DNA from: Devosia sp.
GTDB lineage: Bacteria; Pseudomonadota; Alphaproteobacteria; Rhizobiales; Devosiaceae
DNA length: 64,000 bases
Reading direction: 5' to 3'
Assembly (NCBI RefSeq): GCF_028290625.1
Contig: NZ_JAQGJM010000024.1
Coordinates: 1-64,000, forward strand
A program made the position numbers and the translations under genes. Below are positions 34,244 through 54,263 of this stretch, piece by piece. The notes beneath the pieces were generated by a model, which saw only the letters and a list, made by a program, of their open reading frames with translations, was not told the origin of the DNA and ran no database searches. The number at the start of each line of letters is the position of its first letter. The stretch's first letter is position 1.

Positions 34244-34271
34244 AGCAAAATACGAATAGAGGATAACCCGA

Positions 34272-35183: not shown

Positions 35184-36043
35184 GCGCCGAGCCCAATACC
35201 TACTACGACCGCCGCGGGATCATCGGCACGCTAGGGCGGGACGGGCTGATCCAGATCATTCTCGTGGCCAATACGGTGATCATGCTGGCGCCGATCCTGA
35301 TCATGCTTTTCTCCGCATTCAAATCCACCCAGCAGATTTTCAAATCGCCGTTCGGCTTTCCCGATTTTGCCAACCTGACCAACTTCACCAAGATCTGGGA
35401 ACAGACCAATTTCCTGCGCTATCTGCTGAACTCCTTCGTCGTGACCGGCGCCTCGATGGCGCTAATCCTGATCCTGGGCACGATGGCCGCCTATGCGCTG
35501 GGACGCTACCGGTTCTTCGGCGCCGGGTTCATCCTGATGTTCTTTATCGCCGGGCTGACGCTGCCCCTGAAACTGGCGATCATTCCGCTGTTCATCCTGA
35601 TGCGCGACATGGGCATTCTCAACAACCAGCTGTCGTTGATCTTTGTCTATACGGCGATGGGCCTGCCCTCGACCGTGTTCATCATGACCGGCTTTATCCG
35701 CACGCTGCCGAACGAGCTGGAAGATGCGGCCCGCATGGATGGCGCCAGCGAAGCGCGGATCATGTGGGCCATCATGCTGCCGCTGGTTCGCCCGGCCATG
35801 GTGATCGCGGCGATCCAGAACGTGGTGCCGATCTGGAACGACTTCTTCTTTCCGCTGGTGTTCATCCAGAACGACGCGCTCAAGACCCTGCCGCAGGGGC
35901 TGACGACGTTTATGGGCGAATATACCACCGATTGGGGCGTGCTGTTTGCCGGGCTGACCCTCTCGGCCGCGCCCATCATCGCCATCTATATCGTCCTGTC
36001 GCGCCAGTTCATCAGCGGCATGACATCGGGAGCCATCAAATGA
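35180..36043 (+). CDS. Sugar ABC transporter permease (MalG-like)
   Basis: 'LPNELEDAARMDGASEARIMWAIMLPLVRPAMV' EAA loop; C-terminal 'LSRQFISGMTSGAIK'. Confidence 0.93.
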   Translation: MSAEPNTYYDRRGIIGTLGRDGLIQIILVANTVIMLAPILIMLFSAFKSTQQIFKSPFGFPDFANLTNFTKIWEQTNFLRYLLNSFVVTGASMALILILGTMAAYALGRYRFFGAGFILMFFIAGLTLPLKLAIIPLFILMRDMGILNNQLSLIFVYTAMGLPSTVFIMTGFIRTLPNELEDAARMDGASEARIMWAIMLPLVRPAMVIAAIQNVVPIWNDFFFPLVFIQNDALKTLPQGLTTFMGEYTTDWGVLFAGLTLSAAPIIAIYIVLSRQFISGMTSGAIK

Positions 36044-36702
36044 AACTGGAACGCGGCTCGCTGATCGTGTCCTGCCAGGCGCGGGCGGACAATCCGCTGC
36101 ACGGGCCACAATTCATGGGCGCCATGGCGCTGGCGGCGCGCGATGGCGGGGCAAGAGCGATCCGCGCTAATGGGCCGGAAGACGTACGCGCCGTGAAGGC
36201 GGCGGGGCTGCCGGTGATCGGCATTCACAAGGTGTTTGCCGAGGATGTGCCGGTCTATATCACGCCGACCATCGCGGCAGCCGATGCGCTCGCCGAAGCT
36301 GGCGCGGACATCATTGCGCTCGATTGCACGCCGCGGCCACGCCATGGCGATACGCCACGGGCGATCATCGCGCATATCCGGGCCTTGGGGCTGGAGAGTT
36401 TCGCCGATATCTCGACGCTGGAGGAGGGCATGCTGGCCGCCGAACTGGGCGCGACGTACATATCCACCACGCTGTCCGGCTATACCGAATATACCGAGAC
36501 CAAGCCGGGCGGACCGGACCTTGAACTGATCCGGGCACTCTTCGCGCATATCTCGGTGCCGATCATCGCCGAGGGCCGGTTTAACACGCCAGAGGTGGCC
36601 CGGGCCGCCATCGACGCTGGGGCCTATGCGGTGGTGGTAGGCACCATGATCACCAATCCGCGCGAAATCACCAAGGGTTTCGCCCGGGCGGTGATGGGGT
36701 GA
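36040..36702 (+). CDS. nanE: N-acylmannosamine-6-phosphate 2-epimerase
   Basis: 'GSLIVSCQARADNPLHGPQFMGAMALAARDGGARAIRANG', 'YITPTIAAADALAEAGADIIALDCTPRPRH', 'TTLSGYT', 'PIIAEGRFNTPEVARAAIDAGAYAVVVGTMITNPREIT'. Confidence 0.93.
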   Translation: MKLERGSLIVSCQARADNPLHGPQFMGAMALAARDGGARAIRANGPEDVRAVKAAGLPVIGIHKVFAEDVPVYITPTIAAADALAEAGADIIALDCTPRPRHGDTPRAIIAHIRALGLESFADISTLEEGMLAAELGATYISTTLSGYTEYTETKPGGPDLELIRALFAHISVPIIAEGRFNTPEVARAAIDAGAYAVVVGTMITNPREITKGFARAVMG

Positions 36703-36717
36703 CCGGCTTTATTTGCT

Positions 36718-36847
36718 TCACCTCTCCCTCTGGGGGAGAGGTCGACCCCCTTGGGTCGGGTGAGGGGGTTCCCCCTGCACCGCACCAAGAAAAGGGCCCC
36801 TCACCCGTCGCTGCGCGCCGACCTCTCCCCCAAAGGGAGAGGTGAAG
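36718..36847. repeat. Composite palindromic intergenic element, second subfamily (CACCTCTCCC...GGGAGAGGTG)
   Basis: CACCTCTCCCTCTGGGGGAGAGGTC...GGGTCGGGTGAGGGG...CCCCTCACCCGTC...GACCTCTCCCCCAAAGGGAGAGGTG: nested arms and a large outer dyad. Confidence 0.78.
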
Positions 36848-36848
36848 G

Positions 36849-37760
36849 ATGAGCGCGTATCTGGGCGTCGACATCGGCGGGACCGCATCGCGCTGGGTGC
36901 TGGTGGATGACAATGGCGAGGTCATCGCGCGTGGCAGTGCCGCCGGCGCGACGGGCCATGTGTTCAATCCGGCCGAGCGCGAACGCCTGTTGGCGACCCT
37001 CTCCACTATCGCTGAAGCTGCTCGTGAGTTTTCACCCGTCGCCGCCTGCCTGGGCATTACTGGACTGGGTGAAAGCGTGCACGACGCAGTACGCAACATG
37101 GTCACGGCGCTGTTCGGCATCGAGCCATCGGCCGTGCAGCTTGGCGACGATATGGAACTGGCATTCCGCGCCACCTTTGCGCCGGGCACCGGACATCTCA
37201 TCTCGGCGGGCACGGGATCGATCGGGCTGCACTTGAGCGCGGACGGCGAACTCATCCGCGTGGGCGGGCGTGGATTGTTGATCGACGATGCCGGCTCCGG
37301 CACCTGGATCGCGCTCAATGCGCTCGACCAGCTCTATCGACGGATCGACGAGACGGGCGGCCCGGCCGAGGCCGCCATTCTGGCCACCGAGCTTTATGCC
37401 GAAATGGGCGGTGTGGGCTGGGACAAGACCCGCAGCTTCGTCTACGGCAGTGACCGTGGCCGCATCGGCACCCTGGCGCAGGCCGTGGCCCGCGCGGCAA
37501 GCCAGGGCGACGCGATCGCCACCGACATTCTGGCGCGCGCAGCTATCGAGCTGGCGCGCCTGGCTACCGCCTTGATCGCACGAACCGGTCCCCTGCCCGT
37601 CGCCTTCATCGGTGGTATCACTACGCTACATCCCAGCATCAAGCCTGCCCTCCTAGCAGCCCTCCCCCATGCCGTGGTCAGCTTTCCTCAAATCGACGCC
37701 GCAGCCCACGCCGCCCAATGGGCGCGGCAAATTCAGCAAGCAAACGAGACGACCTCATGA
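36849..37760 (+). CDS. BadF/BadG-type amino-sugar kinase (GlcNAc kinase; MurK-like candidate)
   Basis: 'YLGVDIGGTASRWVLVDDNGEVIARGSAAG', 'GTGHLISAGTGSIGLHLSADGELIRVGGRGLLIDDAGSGTWIALNAL'; adjacent to murQ. Confidence 0.88.
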   Translation: MSAYLGVDIGGTASRWVLVDDNGEVIARGSAAGATGHVFNPAERERLLATLSTIAEAAREFSPVAACLGITGLGESVHDAVRNMVTALFGIEPSAVQLGDDMELAFRATFAPGTGHLISAGTGSIGLHLSADGELIRVGGRGLLIDDAGSGTWIALNALDQLYRRIDETGGPAEAAILATELYAEMGGVGWDKTRSFVYGSDRGRIGTLAQAVARAASQGDAIATDILARAAIELARLATALIARTGPLPVAFIGGITTLHPSIKPALLAALPHAVVSFPQIDAAAHAAQWARQIQQANETTS

Positions 37761-38638
37761 GCACCACCGAATCCGCCTCACTCCGCTATGCCACGCTGGA
37801 AGACTGGTCGAGCAGCGACCTCGTGGCCGGGATTCTTGAGGGCCAATACGCCGCCATCGCCGCAGTGCAAGCCGCGAGCGCCCCAATCGCCGAGGCGATC
37901 GATCGCGGTGCCGAGCGGCTGGCACGCGGTGGACGACTGATCTATCTGGGTGCCGGCACCTCTGGCCGGATAGCCACACAGGACGCCGCCGAATTGCCGC
38001 CGACGTTCAACTGGCCATACGAGCGCGCCATCACCCTGATGGCCGGTGGCAGGGACGCGGTGTTCCATGCGGCCGAAGGCGCGGAAGACAGCGAGCAGCT
38101 CGCGATCGACGCACTGGATGGCATCAGCGTTTCCGAGAATGACGTCGTCATCGGCCTCGCCGCCAGCGGGCGCACACCGTACGCCATCGGCGGCCTGATC
38201 CATGCCCGGGCCAAGGGAGCTCTGACAATCGGCATTTTCAACAATCGGGGCGGGCGGTTGGGCGAAGTCGCTGATATTTCGATTCTGATCGAAACCGGGA
38301 TCGAAGTGCTGTCCGGCTCGACCCGGATGAAGGCCGGCACGGCGCAAAAAGCCGCGCTCAACTGCATCTCGACCGGGGTTATGATCCGGCTGGGCTTCGT
38401 CTATCGCGGCTTGATGGTGGAGATGCGCCCCACCAACGTCAAACTGCAGGACCGCGCGGTCAAGATGGTGGCGACCCTCGCCGACGCCGAATACGAGGTG
38501 GCCAAGGGCGCGCTGGACACTGCCGGGGGCAGCATCAAGCTGGCCACGACCATGCTGATATTGGGGCTGGACCGCGACGCCGCGCAGCAACGACTGAGCG
38601 CGGCGGGCGGAAACTTGCGCACCGCACTACGCGGCTGA
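37757..38638 (+). CDS. murQ: N-acetylmuramic acid 6-phosphate etherase
   Basis: 'LIYLGAGTSGRIATQDAAELPPTFNWP', 'GLAASGRTPYAIGGLIHARAKGALTIGIFNN', 'IEVLSGSTRMKAGTAQKAALNCISTGVMIRLGFVYRGLMVEMRPTNVKL'. Confidence 0.95.
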   Translation: MSTTESASLRYATLEDWSSSDLVAGILEGQYAAIAAVQAASAPIAEAIDRGAERLARGGRLIYLGAGTSGRIATQDAAELPPTFNWPYERAITLMAGGRDAVFHAAEGAEDSEQLAIDALDGISVSENDVVIGLAASGRTPYAIGGLIHARAKGALTIGIFNNRGGRLGEVADISILIETGIEVLSGSTRMKAGTAQKAALNCISTGVMIRLGFVYRGLMVEMRPTNVKLQDRAVKMVATLADAEYEVAKGALDTAGGSIKLATTMLILGLDRDAAQQRLSAAGGNLRTALRG

Positions 38639-39990: not shown

Positions 39991-40797
39991 TCAGGCGGCG
40001 AAAGTGCGGTGGGTGGAGGCGCGGAAGTGGGCTTCGATCGCCGCGACGGCACCCTCCACGTCCCTCGTCTCAAGGCACTTGATCACCTCAAGATGCTCGT
40101 CGATGGTCTTGAGCAGGGCGCTGCGGAAACCTGGGCGGCGATGCACCTGCTGGGCCATGCGGATATTCTCCTGCACGCGATCGTGGGTGTCGAGAATGGC
40201 GCGGTTGCCCAGGGCTTCGACAATCTCGCGGTGCATGCGCATGTCCAGCCGCGTAAAGCGGATAAGCGAGTCCTCGAAGGGTCCGCCTTCGCTCAGGTTG
40301 AGGCGGGCCTCCTCGTGGCTTTCGCGCATATTGGCCAGCCATTCCTCGGTGACGGTGTCGCCGAAGCTGCGCAGCGCGAACACCTCGATCATGATGCGGA
40401 ACTGGTAGTTCTCGCGAATGAACGCGACTTCGGGATAGACGATTCGAATTCCCGTGCGCGGCTTAATCTCGACCAGCCCGAATTCCTCGAGCAGCACTAG
40501 CGTTTCGCGCAGCGGCGACAGCGATAGTCCGAGCAGGTCGCACAACTCGTTCTGCGTGACGACCATGCCCGCTTGGAGCGTGCCGGCCTGCATGGCCTTC
40601 CGGAATCGGCGGTATCCATCATTGTCTTGGCGGGCGTCGGACATTTTCACCTGTGAAGCGATATCGTGGTTTTCCACGGCTGGTATATCCATTAGCAGTT
40701 TAGAAATCTCATAAAAACCGAGGCATACAATCGAATTTGGACGCCTTACGAGCGTTTCGAGGCGATCCATCGCCCTCCTGTCCAGGCAATTATCCAC
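39991..40797 (-). CDS. GntR family transcriptional regulator, FCD-type C-terminus (start uncertain)
   Basis: 'AGTLQAGMVVTQNELCDLLGLSLSPLRETLVLLEEFGLVEIKPRTGIRI' wHTH; 'RLDMRMHREIVEALGN...HLEVIKCLETRDVEGAVAAIEAHFR' FCD-like. Confidence 0.88.
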   Translation of the reverse strand: MDNCLDRRAMDRLETLVRRPNSIVCLGFYEISKLLMDIPAVENHDIASQVKMSDARQDNDGYRRFRKAMQAGTLQAGMVVTQNELCDLLGLSLSPLRETLVLLEEFGLVEIKPRTGIRIVYPEVAFIRENYQFRIMIEVFALRSFGDTVTEEWLANMRESHEEARLNLSEGGPFEDSLIRFTRLDMRMHREIVEALGNRAILDTHDRVQENIRMAQQVHRRPGFRSALLKTIDEHLEVIKCLETRDVEGAVAAIEAHFRASTHRTFAA

Positions 40798-40811: not shown

Positions 40812-40842
40812 TGAGATATTATTAGGCCCCAATAATATCTCA
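40812..40842. promoter_or_regulatory. Candidate operator: perfect 12-bp inverted repeat in the gntR / ABC-operon divergent region
   Basis: TGAGATATTATT-AGGCCCC-AATAATATCTCA; overlaps a TTGACC (40806) / AATAAT (40831) promoter-like pair. Confidence 0.6.
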
Positions 40843-40895: not shown

Positions 40896-42011
40896 ATGGC
40901 CGCCGTCGAACTCAACAATGTCAGCAAGTCGTTCGGCCCGGTCAGCGTCATAGAGGGCGTCGACTTGACCATCGAGAAGGGCGAGTTCGTGGTGTTTGTC
41001 GGCGCCTCGGGCTCTGGCAAGTCGACGCTGCTGCGCATGATCGCCGGCCTCGAAACGGTCAGCGGCGGCGACATTCGGATCGATGGCAAGGACGTCACGT
41101 TCGATGAGCCGTCGGACCGCGGCATCGCCATGGTGTTCCAGTCCTACGCGCTTTATCCGCATATGAATGTCTACGACAACATCGCCTTCAACCTGAAGCT
41201 GGCGCGGGTTGGACGCGAGGAAATCGACAAGCGGGTCAAGGAGGCCGCCCGCATCTTGCGGCTCGAGCCATTGCTGGGCCGGTCCCCGGCGCAACTCTCC
41301 GGCGGACAGCGCCAGCGCGTCGCCATTGGCCGCGCCATCGTGCGCAATCCAAAAGTGTTCCTGTTCGATGAGCCGCTGTCGAACCTGGATGCCTCGCTGC
41401 GGGTGCAGATGCGGCTCGAAATCGAGCGACTGCACCGCGAACTGGGCACCACCATGATCTATGTCACCCATGACCAGGTCGAAGCCATGACGCTGGCCGA
41501 CCGGATCGTGGCGCTCGACAACGGCCGCATCCAGCAGGTCGGGCCCCCGCTCGAACTCTATGCCAGGCCAAACAACCTGTTCGTCGCCGGTTTCATAGGC
41601 TCGCCCAAGATGAACCTGATGGCCGGCAAGGTAGTGGAGAAGACGGTCGGCCAGGCGGTCGTGGAACTCGTCGCAAATGCCGCACCCCGGCTCGAACTTG
41701 CCCTGCCCGACGCCACCGTCGGCGATGCGCTGACGCTTGGCGTACGACCCGAAATGCTGACGATCATCGCTGGGGATGCAACCGTTCCAAGCGGCATGAC
41801 CGCGCTGCCGGCCAGGGTCGAGTCCATCGAACGGCTCGGCAATATCACCTTTGCCTATCTCGATGCAGGCACATCCGAGCTGCTCACCATCCAGGTGATG
41901 GGGCACTCCGATCTTGAGCCCGGACATGCGGTTCGCGTCGGGATCAGGGCGCAGGATGTGCACGTTTTCAACGCCGCCGGCGCAGTCATGACGTCGGCAA
42001 TACAGCGATAA
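40896..42011 (+). CDS. Sugar ABC transporter ATP-binding protein (UgpC/MsmK type)
   Basis: '[18 protein letters not shown]', 'FQSYALYPHMNVYDNIAFNL', 'LSGGQRQRVAIGRAIVRNPKVFLFDEPLSNLD'. Confidence 0.93.
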   Translation: MAAVELNNVSKSFGPVSVIEGVDLTIEKGEFVVFVGASGSGKSTLLRMIAGLETVSGGDIRIDGKDVTFDEPSDRGIAMVFQSYALYPHMNVYDNIAFNLKLARVGREEIDKRVKEAARILRLEPLLGRSPAQLSGGQRQRVAIGRAIVRNPKVFLFDEPLSNLDASLRVQMRLEIERLHRELGTTMIYVTHDQVEAMTLADRIVALDNGRIQQVGPPLELYARPNNLFVAGFIGSPKMNLMAGKVVEKTVGQAVVELVANAAPRLELALPDATVGDALTLGVRPEMLTIIAGDATVPSGMTALPARVESIERLGNITFAYLDAGTSELLTIQVMGHSDLEPGHAVRVGIRAQDVHVFNAAGAVMTSAIQR

Positions 42012-42044: not shown

Positions 42045-43310
42045 ATGCGTAGCTTTAAGGCCGCCGCACTTGTGGGCGGTATGATTCTGGGGGCGACGGC
42101 GGGCGTCGCGACCGCGCAGGATGCGGTGACGCTCAATGTCTGGTCGGACACGCCGCGCCTGACGATGTTCGATCTCTATGACAAGACGCACGACGGCGTT
42201 ACGCTCAACGTCACCACCGTGGCGCCAGCGGACCTCATCGCCAAGATCCAGCTCGCGCTGCAAGCCAAGAGCGAAATCCCCGACGTGATCTTCATGTCCG
42301 ATATCGGCTACACCGCCCAGCTCTCGACCCGGCGCTCCAACTATCTGATGGACCTGACCGATCAGGTGCCGCAGGCGCTGCAGGACGAGTTCTACCCCAA
42401 TGGCAATTCGCCCTGCCACGTCAACGGCAAGTTGCTCTGCCTGCGCAACGATCTCGCCCATATGATCGTCTGGTACGACAAGGATGCCATGGCCGCGCTG
42501 GGCCAGCCCGTTCCCACCACCTGGGAAGAGTTCCAGAAACTCGGCGAAGCGCTTGGCCCCAAGGGCTATGTGCTGGGCAGCGCCGTCGAGAGCTTCCCGC
42601 TCTATAGCTACCTGGTCTCCGATGGCTGCGATCTGGTCATGCCGGTCGAGGGCAAGGAAGACACCGTCAAGATCGACCTGACCACCGAGGCCTGCCTCAA
42701 GCCGGCGCGCATGGTCGACACCATGATCGCCAATGGCAGCCTGTCCAAGGTCGGCACCTTCGAGCCCGATTTCGTCAACCTCGCCAAGACCGGCAAGGTG
42801 CCGCTGATGGTCGGGCCGACCTGGTTCGGCGAATATGTGATCAAGCCGACCTATGAATGGCCCGCCGGCAAGCTGGTCGCGGCATTGCCCCTCAAGTGGG
42901 ACGACCAGAGCCAGCCCCTGACCTGGAGCTGGGGCGGCGGCACCTATGGGGGCTGGAAGGATACGGCCCATCCCGCCGAAGTCGTCGACCTCATCACCTG
43001 GATGGCCACCGACGTCGCCAACCAGACCGAAGCGGTGACCCTGCCCGCCCATCGCCCCTCCGCCGAGGCCTGGGGCGCCCGGCTCAAGGCCGACTCCTAC
43101 TATGCCAGCCCCGACGTGTTCGACGTCGAGGTGGCCGCGGCCGCGTTCAGCCATCCCGGCTACACCAGCCTGCGCTTCGTGGTCTCCGACGCCATCGCCA
43201 AGGTGGTGGTGCAGGGTCTGAGCAGCGGAGGCACGGTGGAGGGCGCCCTGCCCGCGCTGCAGGCCGAGCTGATCAATCTCGCCAAGCTCAACGGCTACAC
43301 CTTCGAGTAA
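42045..43310 (+). CDS. Sugar ABC transporter substrate-binding protein (family 1)
   Basis: Signal peptide 'MRSFKAAALVGGMILGATAGVATAQ'; 'VTTVAPADLIAKIQLALQAKSEIPDVIFMSDIGY', 'VPTTWEEFQKLGEAL'. Confidence 0.9.
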   Translation: MRSFKAAALVGGMILGATAGVATAQDAVTLNVWSDTPRLTMFDLYDKTHDGVTLNVTTVAPADLIAKIQLALQAKSEIPDVIFMSDIGYTAQLSTRRSNYLMDLTDQVPQALQDEFYPNGNSPCHVNGKLLCLRNDLAHMIVWYDKDAMAALGQPVPTTWEEFQKLGEALGPKGYVLGSAVESFPLYSYLVSDGCDLVMPVEGKEDTVKIDLTTEACLKPARMVDTMIANGSLSKVGTFEPDFVNLAKTGKVPLMVGPTWFGEYVIKPTYEWPAGKLVAALPLKWDDQSQPLTWSWGGGTYGGWKDTAHPAEVVDLITWMATDVANQTEAVTLPAHRPSAEAWGARLKADSYYASPDVFDVEVAAAAFSHPGYTSLRFVVSDAIAKVVVQGLSSGGTVEGALPALQAELINLAKLNGYTFE

Positions 43311-43370: not shown

Positions 43371-44306
43371 ATGAGCGCGATAGCGATGGCATTGGACGGA
43401 CCGCTTGCGACAAGCGATCGCGCCCGCAAGGAAAAGCAGAAGGCGCGGCGCGACGCTCGCATGTCCTATCTGCTGCTGGCGCCCTATCTGCTGCTGCTCG
43501 TCATGTTCGGACTTTTCCCGATCGCCTATGCCTTCGGGCTGAGCTTCTTCGACACCATCGAAATGGTGTTCTGGGGGCTCACGAACTACCAGTTCGTGTT
43601 CGACGATTTCCGGGTACCGGCCAGCGTGGTCAACGTGCTCGGCTTCGTGGCCATCTGGGTGGGCATGACGGTGATCGGGGTGGCGACTTTGTCGCTGATG
43701 CTCGACAGCGTCGGCCGCAGAACCGCCAATGCGTTGCGAACGGTCTATTTCCTGCCGGGCGCGGTGACCTCGTCGGCCATCGTCGTGCTGTGGCTGTTCG
43801 TACTCGACCCATCGGTCAGCCCGTTCCAGCCGGTGCTGCATGGGCTAGGCTGGGGCACGCGGGCCGATGTCATTTCCGGTGTCGGCCTGGCCGGGATTTT
43901 CGCCATCATGGCGTATTTCTCGAGTTCTGGCGGCTGGATCGTAGTCTTCGGCGGCGCGCTGGCGAGCCTGCCGGTCGAGGTCATGGAAGCGGCACGGATC
44001 GATGGGGCCAACCGATTCCAACTGGCTCTGCGCATCAAGTTGCCGCTGATCTGGCGCTCGCTGGTGCTGATGGCGATCCTGTCGCTGGCCGGTGGACTGC
44101 AGCTATTCGTCGAGCCGCAACTGATGGGATTGGCCGGCCCCCAGTTTGCCCAGAGCGATTGGTCGCTCAACCAGATGGCGTTCCAATACGCTTTCCGGAT
44201 GGGCGATTTCGGTGCCTCGGCCGCGCTCAGCACGCTGCTGGTCGGCGCCTCGATCGCCATCGCGCTGGTGATCGTTTTCGCCACCAAATTCTACAAGATC
44301 GATTGA
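43371..44306 (+). CDS. Sugar ABC transporter permease (MalF-like)
   Basis: 'YLLLAPYLLLLVMFGLFPIAYAFGLSFFD', 'LPVEVMEAARIDGANRFQLALRIKLPLIWRSL' EAA loop. Confidence 0.92.
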   Translation: MSAIAMALDGPLATSDRARKEKQKARRDARMSYLLLAPYLLLLVMFGLFPIAYAFGLSFFDTIEMVFWGLTNYQFVFDDFRVPASVVNVLGFVAIWVGMTVIGVATLSLMLDSVGRRTANALRTVYFLPGAVTSSAIVVLWLFVLDPSVSPFQPVLHGLGWGTRADVISGVGLAGIFAIMAYFSSSGGWIVVFGGALASLPVEVMEAARIDGANRFQLALRIKLPLIWRSLVLMAILSLAGGLQLFVEPQLMGLAGPQFAQSDWSLNQMAFQYAFRMGDFGASAALSTLLVGASIAIALVIVFATKFYKID

Positions 44307-44313
44307 GGGCATC

Positions 44314-45201
44314 ATGAGCACCAGAACGGCACCCATGCGCCTCAACCTCGGCCGGTTCGTCGTCTATGCGACGCTGGCCTTCGCGGTCTGCTTTTACGGC
44401 ATTCCGTTGCTGTGGCTGTTTGTCGCCGGGACGCGCTCGGAGGCCTCCTTGCTCAGCGATCCGCCATTTGCGCTGGGCACCTGGGAGGCTTTCACCCGCA
44501 CCTGGAATAACCTGACCAGCTACAACAATTTCCAGATCGTCAGTTGGGCGACCAATTCGCTGATCTATTCGATCGGCGGGGTGCTGCTGTCGCTGGCGGC
44601 GTCGATCCCTGGCGGCTATGCGCTGGCGCTGTCGGAGTTTCCGGGACGCAAGCTGATCCTGCTGCTGACGCTGATCGCCATGATCACGCCCAGCACCGCG
44701 GTGGTGCTGCCCATCTTCCTCGAGATGAACCTGCTGGGCCTCAGCAATACCTATGCGGGCATGATCCTGGCCTCGGGCTTCTTCCCCTTCGGCGTCTACC
44801 TCACTTACGTCTATTTCTCGACCTCGCTGCCCAAGGGCGTGATGGATTCCGCGCGGGTCGATGGCTGCAATCGCTTCCAGCTGTTCACCCGCATCGCGCT
44901 GCCGCTGGCGCGGCCGATCATTGCGCTGGTGGCGTTCTTCAGTTTCCTCGCCATCTGGTCGAACTACTTTTTGGCCTTTGTGCTGCTCAGCGACGACAAG
45001 CTCTACAACCTGCCGGTTGGGCTGACGGCGCTGGTCAGCGGCTCGGGCGCCCTCAGCAACCTGCCGTCCAACGACGTACCGATCAAAAAGCCCGAAGTGG
45101 TGTTGGCCGCCATTTTGGTCGTGCTGCCGGTGCTGTTGATCTTCATGGCGGCGCAACGCTTCGTGCGCTCCGGCATGCTGTCGGGCGCGGAAAAAGGTTA
45201 G
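44314..45201 (+). CDS. Sugar ABC transporter permease (MalG-like)
   Basis: 'LPKGVMDSARVDGCNRFQLFTRIALPLARPIIAL' EAA loop; 'VLPVLLIFMAAQRFVRSGMLSGAEKG'. Confidence 0.92.
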   Translation: MSTRTAPMRLNLGRFVVYATLAFAVCFYGIPLLWLFVAGTRSEASLLSDPPFALGTWEAFTRTWNNLTSYNNFQIVSWATNSLIYSIGGVLLSLAASIPGGYALALSEFPGRKLILLLTLIAMITPSTAVVLPIFLEMNLLGLSNTYAGMILASGFFPFGVYLTYVYFSTSLPKGVMDSARVDGCNRFQLFTRIALPLARPIIALVAFFSFLAIWSNYFLAFVLLSDDKLYNLPVGLTALVSGSGALSNLPSNDVPIKKPEVVLAAILVVLPVLLIFMAAQRFVRSGMLSGAEKG

Positions 45202-45242: not shown

Positions 45243-46367
45243 ATGAAGATCACGGGGTTCACGGGCTGGTTGGTTGAAACCGAGCCGGGGCCGAAATTCA
45301 TCTGGCGCGACGGCCTGCCCGGCTCGCACGGCGATATTCCGCGCGGCACCAAGCCGCGCAAGGCGGTGATCCGCATGGAGACCGATAGCGGGCTCGTGGG
45401 CGCCATCGAGGTGGGCCGCGGTGATGCGGTGATTGACCTGGTTCGGCGGCGCTACAACTGGTTCATCGGCGAAAATCCGCTGCTGACGGAGCGGATGTGG
45501 AACCTGATGTGGGAAATCGACCGCATCGAGGAGGTTCATATGCGCTCGCTCGGCATGCTCGACATGTTGTGCTGGGACGTCAAATCGCAGCAGGCCAAGA
45601 TGCCAATCTACCAGCTGCTGGGCGGCCACGATCGCGTGGTGCCGGCCTATGCGTCGACGGTCACCTGGCCGACGATGGATGAGTACGAACGCTACATCAA
45701 GATGAGCCGGGACCTCGGCTTTACCGCGTTCAAGCTGCACGCCTGGGGCGACGTGAAGCGTGATATCGCGCTCTCGACCAACCTGCGCAAATGGGTCGGG
45801 CCCGATGCCGACCTGATGTTCGACGGCTCGGCGGGCTGGGACTATGTGCAGGCGCTGGAATTCGGCAAGGCGATCCAGGATCTCGGCTTCCTCTGGTACG
45901 AGGAGCCGATGCGCGAGTTCTATCTCGGCGCCTATGCCAAGCTCTGCGACAAGCTCGATATTCCGGTGCTGGCCGCCGAAACCTCGGACGGCGTGCACTG
46001 GAACATGGCGAGCTGGATCGAGGGCAAGGCGCTCGACATGACCCGCGTCTCCACCTTCTACAAGGGCGGTTTCACCGGGGCGATGAAAATCGCGCACATG
46101 TCGGAAAGCTTTGGCATGCGCGCGCAGGTGCACGGCATGGGGTTGGAAAATGCCCAACTCTGCGCCGCCATTTCCAACAACGATTATTACGAACAGCTCA
46201 TCATGAACGAGGAGCAGATCAAGGGCCTCGACAAGCTCGGTCCGCTCGCCATCGTCGGCGGCAATCTCACCGTCACCGACGAGCCGGGCCTTGGCTACCA
46301 CTATGACTGGGACGCCCTCGACAAGGCGGCCCTGACCAAGATCGAGGTCACCGAGAGGCTGGCCTGA
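45243..46367 (+). CDS. Enolase-superfamily protein, mandelate racemase/muconate lactonizing type (acid-sugar dehydratase-like)
   Basis: 'MLDMLCWDVKSQQAKMPIYQLLGG', 'GFTAFKLHAWGD', metal-ligand strands 'LMFDGSAGW', 'LWYEEPM', 'LAAETSDG', and 'MRAQVHGMGLENAQL'. Confidence 0.88.
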   Translation: MKITGFTGWLVETEPGPKFIWRDGLPGSHGDIPRGTKPRKAVIRMETDSGLVGAIEVGRGDAVIDLVRRRYNWFIGENPLLTERMWNLMWEIDRIEEVHMRSLGMLDMLCWDVKSQQAKMPIYQLLGGHDRVVPAYASTVTWPTMDEYERYIKMSRDLGFTAFKLHAWGDVKRDIALSTNLRKWVGPDADLMFDGSAGWDYVQALEFGKAIQDLGFLWYEEPMREFYLGAYAKLCDKLDIPVLAAETSDGVHWNMASWIEGKALDMTRVSTFYKGGFTGAMKIAHMSESFGMRAQVHGMGLENAQLCAAISNNDYYEQLIMNEEQIKGLDKLGPLAIVGGNLTVTDEPGLGYHYDWDALDKAALTKIEVTERLA

Positions 46368-46428
46368 CCCCAAGAGCAAGAATGCAGCCAATGCATCAAT
46401 CGAACCAACAAAAATGGAGGAGTTATCA

Positions 46429-47679
46429 ATGACGAGTTTCGATAGACGTTCAGTCCTGAAGCTGGGTGGAGGCGCGCTTGCCGCTTCTGCCTTGCTGCCG
46501 GCGCATGCCTTCGGCCAGTCGACTGCAATCAACTACTGGCACACCTTCACCAGCCAGTCCGAATTTGCTGGGCTCGACGAGGTGATGAAGCTGTTCGCGG
46601 CGGCACATCCGGACATCACGGTCACGCAGGAAAACATCCCGAACCCCGAATTCATGGCCAAAGTGACGGCGGCCGTGGTCTCGGGTAGCCGGCCGGATAC
46701 CACCATGGTGGCGTCCGAACGGGTGGCCGATCTGGTCGCCATGAATGGCCTCACCGACCTGACCGACCGGATCGCAAGTTGGGACCGCCGGTCAGATTTC
46801 GACGACGCCCGTTTCAAATCGATCACCGTGGACGGCAAGGTCTATGGCGTGCCCGCCTTCACCTTTGTCGACTGGATGTATTACCGCAAGGATTGGTTCG
46901 ACGAAGCGGGCCTGGCAGCACCCACCACGTTTGCGGAATTCCGCGACGCGGCAATCAAGCTGACCGACCCGGCCAAGGGCCGTTACGGCTTCGGCATGCG
47001 CGCCGGCGCTGGCGGGCAGGCCTATGTGATCAATGTCATGGAAGGGTTTGGCGCCAAGCTGGTGCAGGACGATGGCACGATCGGCCTCGACCGTGACAAG
47101 GCCATCGAGGCCATCGACTGGTGGGCGGGCCTGTTGACCCGCGACGGCGCTGTGCCGCCCAGCGCGCCCAATGACGGCTTCCGCCAGATCATGGAAGCGT
47201 TCCAGACCGGCCAGACCGCTATGGTGTGGCACCACACCGGCTCGTTCCAGGACAATGCCAAGCTGCTCAAGCCCGGCGTTGAGTTCGCCACCGCCGTGAT
47301 CCCCGCAGGTCCGGTCAACCGCGTCTCTCGCCTCGGCTATGCCTACAACACCGTGACCAATCCCGACACCATCGATGCCGGCTGGGAGTGGCTCAAGTTC
47401 TGGGGCGAGCCTGATGCGGCAATCGCGTTTCTCGAAAAGACTGGCTACTTCCCCGCCTCGACCGCTGCGGCCAAGGACGAGCGCATTTCGGGCAACCCGC
47501 TCTACAAGCCGGCCGCCGATACGCTGGGCTTCGGCATTCCAGCGCCGAGCTTTCCTGGCTCCGCCGGCTGGGCCGAGGGCGTGGTACTGCCCGCCTTCCA
47601 GCGCGTGCTGATCAAGGAAGCGACCCCCGAACAGGCGGTCGACGAGATGATCGACGGCCTTGCCCAAGCGATTGGCTAA
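46429..47679 (+). CDS. Sugar ABC transporter substrate-binding protein (family 1), Tat-like signal
   Basis: 'MTSFDRRSVLKLGGGALAASALLPAHAFGQ' twin-arginine leader; 'FVDWMYYRKDWFDEAGLAAPTTFAEFRDAAIKLTDP'. Confidence 0.9.
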   Translation: MTSFDRRSVLKLGGGALAASALLPAHAFGQSTAINYWHTFTSQSEFAGLDEVMKLFAAAHPDITVTQENIPNPEFMAKVTAAVVSGSRPDTTMVASERVADLVAMNGLTDLTDRIASWDRRSDFDDARFKSITVDGKVYGVPAFTFVDWMYYRKDWFDEAGLAAPTTFAEFRDAAIKLTDPAKGRYGFGMRAGAGGQAYVINVMEGFGAKLVQDDGTIGLDRDKAIEAIDWWAGLLTRDGAVPPSAPNDGFRQIMEAFQTGQTAMVWHHTGSFQDNAKLLKPGVEFATAVIPAGPVNRVSRLGYAYNTVTNPDTIDAGWEWLKFWGEPDAAIAFLEKTGYFPASTAAAKDERISGNPLYKPAADTLGFGIPAPSFPGSAGWAEGVVLPAFQRVLIKEATPEQAVDEMIDGLAQAIG

Positions 47680-47738: not shown

Positions 47739-48698
47739 ATGATCTCGAATACAGGCCCTGCCTATTCGTCGCCCCAGCGGTCGGCGTTTGATCGTTACAA
47801 TCCATTGCGCTGGATCGGCGAACTCAGCGAGACGCGGTACTGGATGTACCTGCTGCTGCTGCCGAGTGCGCTGCTGATCTGCGCCGTGGTGATCTACCCC
47901 ACGCTGTACGGCATGCAGATGAGCTTCCACGAGATGCGGATCAATCGCCCCGGCCTCGGCAATGGCTGGGTCGGGCTGAAGCACTATCAGCGCATGGTGA
48001 CCGATCCTGTCTTTTGGGTCTCGCTGCGCAATACCGCGGTGTGGGTAACCTCGGCGATTGCGCTTGAATTCCTGATCGGGCTTGTGGCCGCTCTGGCCCT
48101 CAACCGCAACCTGCCCGGCAGCAAAGTGCTCGCAGTGCTGATCCTGCTCCCCTATTTCCTGCCCAATGTGGTGGCGGGACATATGTGGGCGCTGATGCTC
48201 GACCCGCGCCTGGGCGTCATCAACGACCTGCTGGTCAAGGTTGGCCTGCTGCAGGGCTACAAAGCCTGGTTCGCCGATCCCACCACCGCCATGGCCGCCG
48301 CAATCGTGGTCGAGGCTTGGCACAGCTTTCCATTTTTCACGCTGCTGTTGCTGGCGGGGCTCAAGGGCATCCCCACCGATCTCTACAAGGCCGCCGATAT
48401 CGACGGCGCGGGCGCGTTATCGCAACTCCGGCTGATCACCCTGCCGATGCTGAAAACCATCATTGCCGCCGCGGTCATCCTGCGCGTCATCGGCTTGGTC
48501 AATTCGCCGGACCTGCTGCTGATCCTGACCAGCGGGGGGCCGGGGCGCTCGACGCAGGTGCTGTCGCTCTATGCGTTCCAGACCGCTTACAAGGATTTCA
48601 ATTTCGGCTACGCGGGCGCCCTTTCGGTGGTGATGTTCGTGCTGCTGATGGTGTTTGCCTGGGCCTATGTGCGGCTCTCAAAAGTGAACGAGGACTGA
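47739..48698 (+). CDS. Sugar ABC transporter permease (MalF-like)
   Basis: 'YLLLLPSALLICAVVIYPTLYGMQMSF', 'IPTDLYKAADIDGAGALSQLRLITLPMLKTI' EAA loop. Confidence 0.92.
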   Translation: MISNTGPAYSSPQRSAFDRYNPLRWIGELSETRYWMYLLLLPSALLICAVVIYPTLYGMQMSFHEMRINRPGLGNGWVGLKHYQRMVTDPVFWVSLRNTAVWVTSAIALEFLIGLVAALALNRNLPGSKVLAVLILLPYFLPNVVAGHMWALMLDPRLGVINDLLVKVGLLQGYKAWFADPTTAMAAAIVVEAWHSFPFFTLLLLAGLKGIPTDLYKAADIDGAGALSQLRLITLPMLKTIIAAAVILRVIGLVNSPDLLLILTSGGPGRSTQVLSLYAFQTAYKDFNFGYAGALSVVMFVLLMVFAWAYVRLSKVNED

Positions 48699-48701
48699 CC
48701 C

Positions 48702-49547
48702 ATGGCCGCCACCCGCTCACGCTCCAAATTGGTCTGGGACATCGTCAGCTACATCGTGCTGATTGGCCTGGCCTTCATCTGCATCGCGCCCATCGTCTGG
48801 ACCTTCCTGACCTCGCTGAAGGTCGAGAGCGACATCGTCACCCGCACGATGCACTACATCCCCCCGAGCATCACGTTCGAGAACTATGTGAAGCTGTGGA
48901 ACCAGTCGAGCTATCCGACGCTGGTGATCAACAGCCTGATCGTCACGTCAACGACCGTGCTGATCTGCCTGCTCACCGGCACTGTCGCCGCCTACGCGTT
49001 CTCGCGCTTCCAGTTCAAGGGGCGCACTCAGTTGATGCTGGGCTATCTCGTGGTCCGCATGTTCCCGGCCGTGTTGATGATCATCCCGCTGTTCATCGTC
49101 ATGCGGCAGGTGGGCTTGCTCGACAGCACCTTCGGGCTGGCCGTGGCCTATACCAGCTTCCTGCTGCCGCTCTTCGTGTGGATGCTGAAAGGCTTCTTCG
49201 ACGCGGCGCCCAAGGAGCTCGAAAGCGCAGCGCGCATCGATGGCACCACGCGGCTGGGCGCCATGTTCATGGTGGTCATCCCAATCGCCCGCAACGGCCT
49301 TTTGGCCACCTGCGTTTTCGTCGCCATCGCGGCGTGGAACGAATATCTGTTCGCGCTGATGCTGACCACCAGCACCGGGTCGCGCACCTGGCCCGTCGGG
49401 CTGCAATTGATGGTCGGCGAGTTCCAGCTCCCCTGGGGCATGCTGGCCGCCGGCGGCATGATTTCCATTCTTCCTGTCATCGTCCTGTTTGCCCTGGTGC
49501 AGCGGGCGATGGTGGCCGGCCTCACCGGCGGCGCAGTCAAAGGTTAG
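48702..49547 (+). CDS. Sugar ABC transporter permease (MalG-like)
   Basis: 'APKELESAARIDGTTRLGAMFMVVIPIARNGLL' EAA loop; 'LVQRAMVAGLTGGAVKG'. Confidence 0.93.
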   Translation: MAATRSRSKLVWDIVSYIVLIGLAFICIAPIVWTFLTSLKVESDIVTRTMHYIPPSITFENYVKLWNQSSYPTLVINSLIVTSTTVLICLLTGTVAAYAFSRFQFKGRTQLMLGYLVVRMFPAVLMIIPLFIVMRQVGLLDSTFGLAVAYTSFLLPLFVWMLKGFFDAAPKELESAARIDGTTRLGAMFMVVIPIARNGLLATCVFVAIAAWNEYLFALMLTTSTGSRTWPVGLQLMVGEFQLPWGMLAAGGMISILPVIVLFALVQRAMVAGLTGGAVKG

Positions 49548-49551
49548 ACCC

Positions 49552-50628
49552 ATGGCAACGCTTTCCATCAACTCCGTCCGCAAGAGTTTTGGCGCCGTCG
49601 AGGTGCTCAGCAATATCGATATCGACGTCGAGGATGGCGGCTTCCTCGTGCTGCTGGGGCCCTCGGGCTGCGGCAAGTCCACGTTACTCGCGATCATTGC
49701 CGGCCTCGAAACCAGTTCGGGCGGCGACATCCTGATCGGGGACCGCAATGTCAACGACGTGCATCCCAAGGACCGCAACATCGCCATGGTGTTCCAGTCC
49801 TACGCGCTCTATCCGACCATGCCGGTGCGCCGGAACATCGGCTTTGGCCTGGAGATGCGCAAAGTCGATGCCAAAGAGCGCGACGCAGCGGTAAACCGCG
49901 CTGCCGAGCTGTTGCAGATCGAGCATCTTCTGGACCGCAAACCGGGCCAGCTGTCCGGCGGGCAGCGCCAGCGCGTCGCCATGGGCCGCGCCATCGTGCG
50001 CAATCCAGACCTGTTCCTGTTCGACGAACCGTTGAGCAATCTCGATGCCAAGCTGCGCGTCGAGATGCGCACTGAGATCAAGCGGCTGCACGAGCGGCTG
50101 GGCACCACCACGGTCTATGTCACCCACGACCAGGTCGAGGCGCTGACGCTCGGCACCAAGGTCGCGGTGATGAAGGACGGCGTGATCCAGCAATTGGCCG
50201 ATCCCGAGACCATTTACGAGCGGCCCGCCAACATGTTCGTCGCCGGTTTCATCGGATCGCCGACGATGAACTTTCTCAGGGGCACGCTGGAACAGGCCGC
50301 AGACGACCTGCACCTACGCTATGATGGCGGCACGCTGGCACTGCCTGAGCTGGCGCAGGACGTCGCCCATTTTGTGGGACGCACGGTCGTGGCCGGCATT
50401 CGTCCGGAAACGCTGAATGCCGGGCCCGGCGCCGCAACGCTGACCGGCATCGTCGACATCATCGAGCCAACCGGCCCCGACACCATGGTGATCGTCAATG
50501 TGGGCGGACAGCTCATCACCGCTCGGCTTGGACCGAGGGCTCGCCCCGTGTCCGGCCAGTCGCTGACCCTTTCGGCGGATAGCGCCGCCATCAACCTTTT
50601 CGATCCCGATACCGGCAACCGGATTTGA
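49552..50628 (+). CDS. Sugar ABC transporter ATP-binding protein (UgpC/MsmK type)
   Basis: 'GPSGCGKSTLLAIIAGLE', 'LSGGQRQRVAMGRAIVRNPDLFLFDEPLSNLD'. Confidence 0.93.
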   Translation: MATLSINSVRKSFGAVEVLSNIDIDVEDGGFLVLLGPSGCGKSTLLAIIAGLETSSGGDILIGDRNVNDVHPKDRNIAMVFQSYALYPTMPVRRNIGFGLEMRKVDAKERDAAVNRAAELLQIEHLLDRKPGQLSGGQRQRVAMGRAIVRNPDLFLFDEPLSNLDAKLRVEMRTEIKRLHERLGTTTVYVTHDQVEALTLGTKVAVMKDGVIQQLADPETIYERPANMFVAGFIGSPTMNFLRGTLEQAADDLHLRYDGGTLALPELAQDVAHFVGRTVVAGIRPETLNAGPGAATLTGIVDIIEPTGPDTMVIVNVGGQLITARLGPRARPVSGQSLTLSADSAAINLFDPDTGNRI

Positions 50629-50661: not shown

Positions 50662-52554
50662 ATGACTGATCTCTCCAAGCTCCCCCAAATCGTCGCTGCT
50701 CGCATCGCCACCATTCCCAAATGGGCGCTGCTGCAACGGCAGATTTTCAGTGTCCTGGACCAGGCCGCGATCGAGTTCGCCGATCGCTATACGCGCGACG
50801 ATGGCACCCTGGTCTGGCGCGATCGCTGGCCGGGCATGGACGGCTCGGACGACCCCTATGAGGGGTTCATGAACATGCCGCTATTCTACGCTCTGGGCGG
50901 CAGCGAAGAAGTCTATTTGCGCTCGCGCACCATCTGGGATGGCATCACCTGGCAGTGGACGGAATATGGCCAGGTCCACCGCGAATACGACGCCTATTAC
51001 GACTGGATGCACCACGGCGAGAGCAACCTGTTCTTCTACTTCTTCGGCCTCGCCGACCCCAGCGTGCCCAAGGACCGGCAACGCGCGCGGCGTTTCGCCG
51101 GCTTCTACAATGGCGAGGACGCGGAGGCGCTCAACTACGATGCCGACAAGCGCCTCATCCGTTCGCCCATCACCGGCAGCAAGGGCCCGCGCTTCGTGCA
51201 GACGGGTGAGGACTGGTCGACCCACCGCGAAATCCTCGACAATTACCTGCCGCCTTTCGAAGATATCCCTGGCATCGACCGCTACGCCACGGCGACGCCT
51301 TGGTCCAACGACACCACCTATGCGGACATTCTCGAGCGCATCAATACACGGCAATCGCGCGGCGACGTGCCGCTCAATCTGGGCGCCACATCGTTGATGA
51401 CCCACGCCTTCGCCTATACGGGCGACGAAAAATACCGCGACTGGGTCATCGATTATCTTGGCGCCTGGACCGAACGCACCGCGCGCAATGGCGGCGTCAC
51501 GCCCGACAATATCGGCCTCTCCGGCGAGATCGGTGAATACAACGACGGCAAATGGTGGGGCGGCTATTACGGCTGGCGCTGGCCGCATGGCTCGTTCTCG
51601 CTACTGGAGCCGATGTGCATCGCCGGCGTCAACGCCGCCCTGCTCACCGGTGACATGAGCCATCTCGACCTGCCCCGCTCACAACTCGACATGCTCTGGG
51701 ACCTGCGGCGCGAGGAAAACGGCATCCAACTCGTGCCGAACCGGCACTATGACGCCGGCTGGCGCGACTTCCGCCCGATGCATCCGATGTATGGCACCTA
51801 TCTGTGGAACGTCTCCATGGCCGAAGAGGACGCAGAGCGGGCCGAGCGCGGCTGGGCCGGCCACCTGTTCGACGCGGTCAATCCGGCCTATCACGGCTAT
51901 GGGGCCTCCAATGGCGGCCATATGGGATTCAACGGCAATACGGCGCAGTGGTTCAAGTTCATACGGGGCGGCAATCCCGACTATCCCGAGGCGTTGCTTG
52001 AAGCCAATCTTGCGACCATCTCAAGCCAGATCGCGACCTTCCGGGCGCCCGAGAACGACCCCGAGACCATGGACCACTTTCGCGAGTCCATGACCATCCA
52101 CATGTGGCAGCAGTTGACCCCGATGGTCCTTGAAGGCCTGACGCAACTCACCCTGGGCGGACCGATGCACGTCTACCACGGCGGCTTGCAGCTCGCGCGT
52201 TTCCGCTATTTCGACGCCGACGCCCAACGCCCCGGCCTGCCGCCCGGCGTGGCCGCACTGGTGGACAAGCTGGCCGACACCAGCGCCGCGCTCACCCTGG
52301 TCAACACCGACGCCCTCGTAGCCAAGCGGGTCATCATCCAGGCCGGCGTCTTCGGCGAGCATGTCTTCGACGGCGCCTCACTCGATGGCGAGCGCTTCGA
52401 TGCGACCGGGCGCTGGCTTGTCGTCACCCTCGCCCCCGGTGCCACCGCGCAATTGGACCTCGGCATGCGCCGCTTCGCCAACGCCCCCAATTACGACACC
52501 CCCTGGCAAACCGCCGCCTCCGGCCCCGCGCCGCTCGTAGGGCGCGAAATGTAA
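50662..52554 (+). CDS. Uncharacterized 630-aa cytosolic protein, possibly an alpha-toroid carbohydrate-active enzyme
   Basis: Continuous ORF after the ABC operon; aromatic-rich ('GKWWGGYYGWRWPHGSFSLLEP', 'WVIDYLGAWTERT', 'GYGASNGGHMGFNGNTAQWFKF'); no signal peptide; C-terminal beta-rich tail. Confidence 0.75.
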   Translation: MTDLSKLPQIVAARIATIPKWALLQRQIFSVLDQAAIEFADRYTRDDGTLVWRDRWPGMDGSDDPYEGFMNMPLFYALGGSEEVYLRSRTIWDGITWQWTEYGQVHREYDAYYDWMHHGESNLFFYFFGLADPSVPKDRQRARRFAGFYNGEDAEALNYDADKRLIRSPITGSKGPRFVQTGEDWSTHREILDNYLPPFEDIPGIDRYATATPWSNDTTYADILERINTRQSRGDVPLNLGATSLMTHAFAYTGDEKYRDWVIDYLGAWTERTARNGGVTPDNIGLSGEIGEYNDGKWWGGYYGWRWPHGSFSLLEPMCIAGVNAALLTGDMSHLDLPRSQLDMLWDLRREENGIQLVPNRHYDAGWRDFRPMHPMYGTYLWNVSMAEEDAERAERGWAGHLFDAVNPAYHGYGASNGGHMGFNGNTAQWFKFIRGGNPDYPEALLEANLATISSQIATFRAPENDPETMDHFRESMTIHMWQQLTPMVLEGLTQLTLGGPMHVYHGGLQLARFRYFDADAQRPGLPPGVAALVDKLADTSAALTLVNTDALVAKRVIIQAGVFGEHVFDGASLDGERFDATGRWLVVTLAPGATAQLDLGMRRFANAPNYDTPWQTAASGPAPLVGREM

Positions 52555-52598: not shown

Positions 52599-53063
52599 TC
52601 AAACTTCGGCGCTGGCTTCTTCCTTTTCGCGCACACTTTCCAGGTTGCCAATGAGCCGTTGCAGAAGATGGACCAGGAGGTCGATCTCGGCATCGCTCAT
52701 TCCAGCAGTTGCCTCCTCGTTGCCGACGTTGACGGCCAGGTCGATTTGCGGCAGCAGCGCCATGGCTTTGGCACTGAGCGAAATCAGCGTGCTGCGACCG
52801 TCGTTTGGATCGGGGGTTCGCTCGATCATGCCATCGCGCTCCAGGCGGGCCAGGAGTTGAGCCATGCTAGATTGCTCGATCCTGACGCGCGCCGTCAGTT
52901 CCTTTTGCGAAAGTTTCTCCCCCCTCCGCAACATGGTGAGAACCGGAAAGCTGGCGACACCAAGACCCATGGGACGGAATCTACCCTCCGCCAGGCGCAT
53001 CATCACCCGTGCGGCCCGATTGATGAGATGTCCCGGCCTTTCGTACAGTGGCCATTCCCGCAT
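52599..53063 (-). CDS. MarR family transcriptional regulator
   Basis: 'LGVASFPVLTMLRRGEKLSQKELTARVRIEQSSMAQLLARLERDGMIERTPDPNDGRSTLISLSAKAMALLP'. Confidence 0.93.
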   Translation of the reverse strand: MREWPLYERPGHLINRAARVMMRLAEGRFRPMGLGVASFPVLTMLRRGEKLSQKELTARVRIEQSSMAQLLARLERDGMIERTPDPNDGRSTLISLSAKAMALLPQIDLAVNVGNEEATAGMSDAEIDLLVHLLQRLIGNLESVREKEEASAEV

Positions 53064-53076
53064 TATATCCCTCTTG

Positions 53077-53110
53077 TATAGGCTCCTATATATAATATAT
53101 AGGTACCTAT
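53077..53110. promoter_or_regulatory. Candidate MarR operator array (alternating TATAGG/CCTATA half-sites)
   Basis: TATAGG(77-82)-CT-CCTATA(85-90)...TATAGG(98-103)-TA-CCTAT(106-110); central CCTATATAT-A-ATATATAGG (53085-53103) is a 9+1+9 palindrome. Confidence 0.7.
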
Positions 53111-53159
53111 CATTATCAGGCGCCGACGTAGACAAGCAAGGCGCGATTGAGGACGCATC

Positions 53160-54263
53160 ATGATCACGATTATCGGAGCCGGCATGGGCGGCCTGACGCT
53201 GGCAAGCGTCCTGCATCGAAACGGCATTGCCGCTGAAATCTACGATGCCGACCTGTCGGCGACCTCTCGCCATCAGGGCGGTATGCTTGATGTCCACGAA
53301 GATACCGGCCAGGTTGCCATCGCGGCGGCCGGCTTGTCCGATACCTTCCGCACACTAGTCCTGCCGCAGGGCGACGCCATGATGGTCCGCGACAAGACCG
53401 GCACGATCCTGTTGTCCGATGAGGGGGATGGATCGCGTCCGGAAATCGATCGCGGCGCTCTGCGCAACCTGCTGATCGAAACGCTTCCCGCGGGCACGAT
53501 CCATTGGAATTGCAAGGTCACCGAGATTGCCAAGGCAGACGGGGGAAACGAGCTAACATTTGCCGATGGCCGGGTGGTGACTACCGACGTGCTCATCGGT
53601 GCCGATGGGGCCTGGTCGAAAGTAAGGCCGCTGCTCTCCGCAGCAAAGCCCGTCTATTCGGGAATAACCTTTGTCGAACTGCGTTATTTGGATGCCGACG
53701 AGAAATACCCGATGGCGGCCGAGCTGGTCGGCAAGGGCACGCTATTCGCTCTCTCGGATGAACGTGGGCTTCTCGCCCACCGCGAGCCCAACCATGAAGT
53801 CTGCGTCTATGTCGCAGTGAAGGTCCCCGAAGAGTGGTGGAAAGGGCCGATCACACGCGACCTGCTGCTGAGTTTCTTCGCCGATTGGGACAAGCGATAT
53901 CTTGATGTCCTTGCGGCCAGCGATGGGGACCTTAGCGCCAGGCAAATCCACGCCTTGCCGGTGGGACACAACTGGCCCCGCATTCCGGGCGTAACCCTTG
54001 TGGGCGACAGCGCCCATCTGATGTCGCCCTTTGCCGGCGAAGGCGTCAACCTGGCCATGATCGATGGCGCCGACCTGGCAATGGCCATCATCGACAATCC
54101 CGGCGACATCGAGAAGGCGTTTGCCAGCTACGAAGCCAAGATGTTCCCCCGTGCCGCCGAAAAGGCAGCCGAGTCCGCCGAAAACCTGATCGTCGCTTTC
54201 GAGGCGGACGCGCCCAAAGGTCTGCTGGCGTTCTTCGCAAGCATGAGCCAGCCCGAAGGGTGA
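53160..54263 (+). CDS. FAD-dependent monooxygenase, TetX-like
   Basis: 'ITIIGAGMGGLTLASVLHRNGI', 'GGMLDVHEDTGQVAIAAAGL', 'LLLSFFADWDKRYLDVL', 'VTLVGDSAHLMSPFAGEGVNLAMIDGADLAMAI' resemble TetX motifs as I know them. Confidence 0.85.
   Translation: MITIIGAGMGGLTLASVLHRNGIAAEIYDADLSATSRHQGGMLDVHEDTGQVAIAAAGLSDTFRTLVLPQGDAMMVRDKTGTILLSDEGDGSRPEIDRGALRNLLIETLPAGTIHWNCKVTEIAKADGGNELTFADGRVVTTDVLIGADGAWSKVRPLLSAAKPVYSGITFVELRYLDADEKYPMAAELVGKGTLFALSDERGLLAHREPNHEVCVYVAVKVPEEWWKGPITRDLLLSFFADWDKRYLDVLAASDGDLSARQIHALPVGHNWPRIPGVTLVGDSAHLMSPFAGEGVNLAMIDGADLAMAIIDNPGDIEKAFASYEAKMFPRAAEKAAESAENLIVAFEADAPKGLLAFFASMSQPEG

Follow-up and report, generated by a model that had tools for sequence, protein, structure and literature searches.

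A putative cytosolic glycoside hydrolase with a predicted six-hairpin fold, from a new sequence family, closes a dual-importer operon in Devosia

The window analyzed in our study comprises 64,000 nucleotides of a Devosia sp. contig (NZ_JAQGJM010000024.1). On the + strand it contains an operon starting at 40896 which encodes, in this order, an ABC importer, an enolase-superfamily (MR/MLE) enzyme, a second importer and a 630-aa protein, here called P0001 (50662-52554). Both importers are of the CUT1 type. The first consists of a UgpC/MalK-type ATPase encoded by the first gene of the operon (40896-42011; Pfam and NCBIfam), a solute-binding protein of the SBP_bac_1 family (42045-43310) and two permeases (43371-44306 and 44314-45201), the latter three assigned by Pfam. 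It is followed by the MR/MLE enzyme (45243-46367), whose nearest solved relatives are 1rvk/4hcd/4mmw and 4ggb. These are aldarate-type enzymes, so the Devosia substrate may be acidic. The second importer comprises another SBP_bac_1 protein (46414-47679) and two permeases (47739-48698 and 48702-49547), again by Pfam, as well as a further UgpC/MalK-type ATPase (49489-50628; Pfam and NCBIfam). Since the NCBIfam match of this ATPase begins at residue 22, its true start probably lies about 63 bp downstream, near 49552. Importers of the MalK/SBP_bac_1 type are best known for taking up di- and oligosaccharides. The operon contains no glycosidase candidate other than P0001.

A regulator of the GntR/FCD family is encoded divergently from the operon (39991-40797, - strand). 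Between the two lies a perfect 11-bp inverted repeat, GAGATATTATT-N7-AATAATATCTC (40813-40841), which is a candidate operator. Similar inverted repeats are present in four other Devosiaceae loci (L002, L005, L008 and L010). An operator search of the own genome gave no wider regulon, because the site in the window is the only perfect copy. Elsewhere in the window, the genes of a third CUT1-type importer precede those of a BadF-type kinase and a MurQ etherase (31721-38638), an arrangement suggestive of N-acetylmuramic acid recycling. Moreover, for the FAD-dependent monooxygenase at 53160-54263 the best NCBIfam model was Tet(X), scoring 152 bits where the cut-off is 750, and it was not called a tetracycline-inactivating enzyme.

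The reading frame of P0001 is uninterrupted from the ATG to the stop codon, and the end of the preceding ATPase ORF at 50628 leaves a spacer of 33 bp, as described in the initial annotation. Compared with a 95%-identical orthologue, 24, 16 and 164 substitutions were counted at codon positions 1, 2 and 3, and 94, 76 and 255 compared with an 81%-identical one. Substitutions thus occur mainly at third positions, which identifies P0001 as a protein gene under selection. It is present as a single copy in its own genome and closes the operon, as the MarR-family gene that comes next (52599-53297) is located on the - strand. Further features that had been read from the letters were found again: the aromatic-rich stretches GKWWGGYYGWRWPHGSFSLLEP (residues ~296-317) and GYGASNGGHMGFNGNTAQWFKF (~411-432), a beta-rich C-terminal tail with strands predicted at 514-603, and an N-terminus (MTDLSKLPQIVAARIATIPKW) which, judged by eye, does not look like a signal peptide. 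The protein is putatively cytosolic.

No family had been recognized for P0001, and our searches agree with this. P0001 matched no Pfam model at E<=10 and no NCBIfam model at E<=1, and among PDB sequences it gave two chance matches to antibodies only. A profile of 53 homologues found nothing convincing among PDB sequences, a Pfam scan of these 53 members gave no meaningful match, and a literature search retrieved no paper on the family. A hit to a characterized family, which would have spoken against a new one, was thus looked for and did not appear in these databases. Judged by sequence, with no Pfam or NCBIfam model and no PDB sequence match, the family is new within a known fold class.

A single scan of genome contigs yielded 103 relatives. 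These belong to Devosiaceae, Rubellimicrobium and Sphingobium; others come from Paenibacillaceae, Neobacillus, freshwater Actinomycetota and Roseiflexaceae (Chloroflexota) as well as from some planctomycete, Sumerlaeota and Poribacteria MAGs. Plasmid records add relatives from haloarchaea, Streptomyces, Nonomuraea and Asticcacaulis with 31-39% tblastn identity; in the full alignment the distant relatives from these records share 36-41%. Members comprise 600-650 aa and are labelled 'hypothetical protein' wherever annotation was seen. Distribution is patchy within the taxonomic family of the host (21 of 136 genomes), and across the phylum one of 399 sampled genomes carries the gene. In the tree, relatives from Paenibacillus (L013, L074 and L076) cluster with the Devosia clade, and vertical inheritance is therefore not the whole story. 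Four copies in different contexts occur in P. lignilyticus, which suggests substrate diversification.

The AlphaFold2 model of P0001, built with 53 sequences, reached a pLDDT of 89 and a pTM of 0.92. In it, about 12 main helices span residues 20-498, where a beta-hairpin is inserted at 350-372, and a C-terminal beta-sandwich follows at 514-603. This gives a predicted toroid domain at ~20-500; for the toroid alone (residues 1-505) the pLDDT was 85.6. In the sequence, 'TGD' turns of the six-hairpin type are repeated at 253-258 and 329-338. A Foldseek search of the PDB with the whole model gave 22 matches with E < 0.001, led by GH127 (HypBA1/BT3674; E 8e-5) and YihS/AGE (E 9e-5). Other AGE enzymes, GH76, Dfg5 and a putative rhamnosidase are listed too. 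With the toroid alone, GH76 (E 6.5e-4), YihS (E 8.9e-4, TM 0.43/0.51) and the unsaturated glucuronyl hydrolase UGL 1vd5 (GH88) were retrieved. In both searches the best PDB matches are almost all (alpha/alpha) toroid carbohydrate enzymes, apart from two of uncertain function that are not annotated as sugar enzymes (7tkv and 2z07). A viral fold library gave no match below 1e-3. The model and these matches support the toroid with C-terminal beta domain proposed in the initial annotation and speak against a fold unrelated to carbohydrate enzymes. P0001 is accordingly predicted to belong, distantly, to the (alpha/alpha) toroid ('six-hairpin') carbohydrate-enzyme superfamily. As the best TM-score was 0.51, it appears to be a distant toroid and no member of the families listed.

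Family membership was also addressed by hhalign profile comparisons with AGE (30 proteins), GH127 and two GH88-type profiles; the Devosia-derived GH88 profile contained shadow ORFs, and a neighbour-derived one was therefore used too. Profile similarity to GH127 was rejected, with a probability of 0.7% and no match to PF07944 in P0001 or the 53 members, and so was profile similarity to AGE (PF07221; 1.6%). For GH88/GH105 the probability was at most 1.7%, compared with 100% for the match of a GH88-like neighbour cluster to GH88. For GH76, too, similarity at the profile level was rejected, as none of the 53 members gave a GH76 Pfam match.

Conservation was counted over 65 sequences with identities down to ~36%. 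The DGxDDxxE motif (DGSDDPYE, codons 60-67; 50839-50862, + strand like the following motifs) lies in the model in the loop before the second long helix. Here D60, G61, D63, D64 and E67 are invariant, and the four acidic residues are candidate catalytic carboxylates. D114, W115, H117 and E120 are invariant in the DWxHxGE motif (DWMHHGE, codons 114-120; 51001-51021), as are G234, D235 and L240 in GDVPLNL (codons 234-240; 51361-51381), where N239 is found in 64 of the 65 sequences. The aromatic loop DN...GEYNDGKWWGGYYGWRW (codons 282-307; 51505-51582) contains the invariant W298 and Y303 and is predicted to form the rim of the active site before the helix at 312. Active sites of toroid enzymes are usually located in loops or at helix starts, and this is where D60, D63, D64, E67, D114, E120 and D235 are predicted. 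Their invariance suggests acid/base glycosidase chemistry, and catalysis by carboxylates would be the simplest reading of the conservation. A non-catalytic or regulatory sugar-binding protein would fit the fact that the relatives found here have no shown activity, but this is hardly credible given the many absolutely conserved charged residues and the catabolic enzymes encoded in the same operons. The family has no conserved cysteine (in the best column C occurs in 41 of 65 sequences, and P0001 itself has T), which excludes the zinc/cysteine mechanism of GH127.

The rank of YihS and AGE among the top fold matches would also fit an isomerase or epimerase of the AGE/YihS type that has acquired a beta-domain and acts on imported free sugars, and the mutarotase and aldose dehydrogenase genes near relatives suit a free sugar. 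We nevertheless regard this as unlikely. Haloarchaeal members carry other residues at the positions of H118, H309 and H480, which makes a family-wide AGE-like His pair improbable; the candidates for this role, H309 and H480, are kept within the main clade, and G and D take their places in haloarchaea. Besides, the AGE profile gave a very low probability, AGE proteins have no C-terminal beta-sandwich, and several loci already contain a nearly complete oxidative route. The haloarchaeal relatives also have an altered active-site loop, with WGGW for PHG and DEDY for IHxWQ.

Neighbouring genes were counted by profiles within 8 kb of a P0001 relative in 92 loci. Most frequent were AKR (40), SDR (28), MR/MLE and Amidohydro_2 (27 each) genes, followed by RhaM-like (23), GH88 (11) and FAA (9) genes; most of the AKR (33) and RhaM-like (22) genes lie within 2 kb. 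The nearest solved relative of the AKR is L-galactose dehydrogenase. The Amidohydro_2 protein, a lactonase, has one PDB relative (4dlf) and matches the NCBIfam model of L-fucono-1,5-lactonase below the cut-off. For the FAA protein, L-2,4-diketo-3-deoxyrhamnonate hydrolase (8gsr) is among the top three solved relatives, beside other FAA enzymes. The RhaM-like neighbour, a protein of ~220 aa, is encoded at L017:15176-15850 and in 19 further loci. Of 18 members compared with rhaM, 14 gave a match, which stayed below threshold; the conserved Tyr-x3-His pair resembles that of RhaM, and the protein probably consists of two RhaM-like halves. Including a paralogous clade, RhaM-like relatives were matched in 54 of 105 genomes of Paenibacillus relatives. 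In Paenibacillus, AKR, P0001, lactonase and RhaM-like genes form a four-gene cassette in this order, which makes the substrate directly testable. The neighbours in Bacillota, Chloroflexota and some Actinomycetota point to catabolism of a 6-deoxy-L-hexose or of L-galactose. P0001 is the constant element of the loci and the surrounding oxidative sugar pathway varies; the neighbours set the class of pathway, not the bond acted on. The Devosia operon carries no AKR, mutarotase or FAA gene, and the L-fucose-type reading may therefore not transfer to the window.

Several large neighbours have no Pfam match above cut-off (L019:7534-8982, L017:11932-13992, L074:15650-17668, L076:11961-13742 and L032:5584-7854), and some of them are probably other unclassified sugar enzymes. 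One of them, c17, shows a faint resemblance to GH127. Close Paenibacillus relatives of P0001 adjoin GH141-like and heparinase-type genes, which is in line with a glycosidase.

In haloarchaea the neighbours are pectin and uronate genes. They include pectate lyases, GH28 and GH4 as well as MR/MLE and dihydrodipicolinate-synthase-like genes, and IclR regulators are encoded nearby. Nine haloarchaeal loci (L097, L098 and L101-L107) are located on large plasmids, often adjoining pectate lyases and an IclR regulator. The GH88 neighbours, whose nearest solved relative is unsaturated glucuronyl hydrolase, all occur in Bacillota. An oligo-uronide substrate, as suggested for assays in the initial annotation, is consistent with the haloarchaeal pectin loci, the Devosia MR/MLE enzyme and the 11 GH88 loci, but the 6-deoxy-L-hexose or L-galactose neighbours elsewhere point in another direction. 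Such contexts also raise the question of a lyase. Toroid polysaccharide lyases exist, and an enzyme of this kind would abstract the proton next to the uronate carboxylate and release the neighbouring sugar by beta-elimination, leaving an unsaturated product inside the cell. Lyases of this fold use a Tyr/His base and a neutralizing Asn, Arg or His; the invariant H117 together with Y303 makes such chemistry possible, and the near-invariant N239 could serve as well. The uronate genes around haloarchaeal relatives, the 11 Bacillota loci with GH88 and a heparinase II/III gene at L074 are in line with it. However, no toroid lyase was among the 50 PDB fold matches listed, GH88 is not near most family members, including those of Devosia, and AKR and mutarotase neighbours suit a free aldose better than an unsaturated uronate. 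We therefore consider a lyase a possible but rather improbable alternative.

Three Bacillota loci (L046, L047 and L018) combine lactonase, SDR and FAA hydrolase genes with P0001, and no dehydratase was detected locally. P0001 occupies the place in which one would be expected, and a dehydratase would suit these loci as well as a hydrolase. P0001 could thus be a toroid-based aldonate dehydratase which replaces the MR/MLE-type enzymes and fills the missing step in Neobacillus, Cohnella and Paenibacillus operons. In favour of this, the Neobacillus genome of L018, the Cohnella genome of L046 and that of L017 each contain a single IlvD/EDD gene, which is presumably biosynthetic. Nevertheless, 12 of the 13 Devosia-group loci and 9 of the 16 actinomycete ones have an MR/MLE gene near P0001, and such genes were present elsewhere in all 17 genomes tested. 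To our knowledge, no toroid aldonate dehydratase has been described. A search via mutarotase paralogues found no Paenibacillus operon with a dehydratase in the place of P0001; these paralogues occur mostly in other contexts, without the labelled AKR/lactonase set. Overall, we regard a dehydratase as very unlikely. As MR/MLE already fills the dehydratase slot in the Devosia-group and many actinomycete loci, P0001 probably acts at an upstream step.

On balance, we lean towards reading P0001 as a glycoside hydrolase that is cytosolic and exo-acting, belongs to a new six-hairpin family and supplies an oxidative sugar-acid pathway. Its fold is a prediction, and we infer activity, catalytic residues, substrate and direction of flow as follows. 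The CUT1-type importers would bring in di- or oligosaccharides, whose sugar end P0001 would bind in the cleft of the aromatic loop at one mouth of the toroid. Carboxylates, with D60/D63/D64/E67, D114, E120 and D235 as candidates, would then act as acid and base and remove the terminal residue. The freed sugar or sugar acid would enter an oxidative, non-phosphorylating route via mutarotase, aldose 1-dehydrogenase (AKR or SDR), lactonase, MR/MLE dehydratase, keto-deoxy-acid dehydrogenase and FAA-type hydrolase. In bacterial relatives this sugar is probably of the 6-deoxy-L-hexose or L-galactose type (L-fucose, L-rhamnose or L-galactose), in haloarchaeal relatives probably a uronate; in Devosia it may be of either kind. 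Cleavage of the glycoside before oxidation explains most loci. Of the initial proposal of a toroid glycan enzyme of a new family, the new sequence family, the predicted fold and the operon with carbohydrate importers are supported; catalytic activity and specificity are the inferred part. The conserved family reaches from haloarchaea to such bacteria as freshwater actinobacteria, soil Paenibacillus and Devosia. If it is a true glycosidase, it represents a new CAZy-level family and flags a sugar-utilization route missed by present annotation.

Several known toroid enzymes resemble P0001 in part. GH127 HypBA1 (3wre/8qf2), the best full-length fold match, likewise combines a helical toroid with a C-terminal beta-sandwich, although the TM-score is only ~0.28. 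It is a beta-L-arabinofuranosidase of oligosaccharide catabolism, in which P0001 would act as well. The best-superposing toroid (domain 1-505) is found in the AGE superfamily, which includes YihS sulfoquinovose isomerase, mannose isomerase and cellobiose epimerase; in contrast to P0001, these enzymes have no beta-domain. The hydrolases of GH76 (5agd) and GH88/GH105 (1vd5) match the toroid fold, whereas P0001 is larger and has the beta-domain. GH76 hydrolases use a catalytic Asp-Asp pair, for which the invariant D63-D64 of P0001 would be the candidate equivalent. With regard to pathways, we know of no P0001 homologue in the non-phosphorylating operons for L-fucose and L-rhamnose. These operons encode L-fuconolactonase, L-fuconate dehydratase and L-2-keto-3-deoxyfuconate 4-dehydrogenase (cf. 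PMC11199699). The same enzyme classes are encoded by the genes around P0001 relatives.
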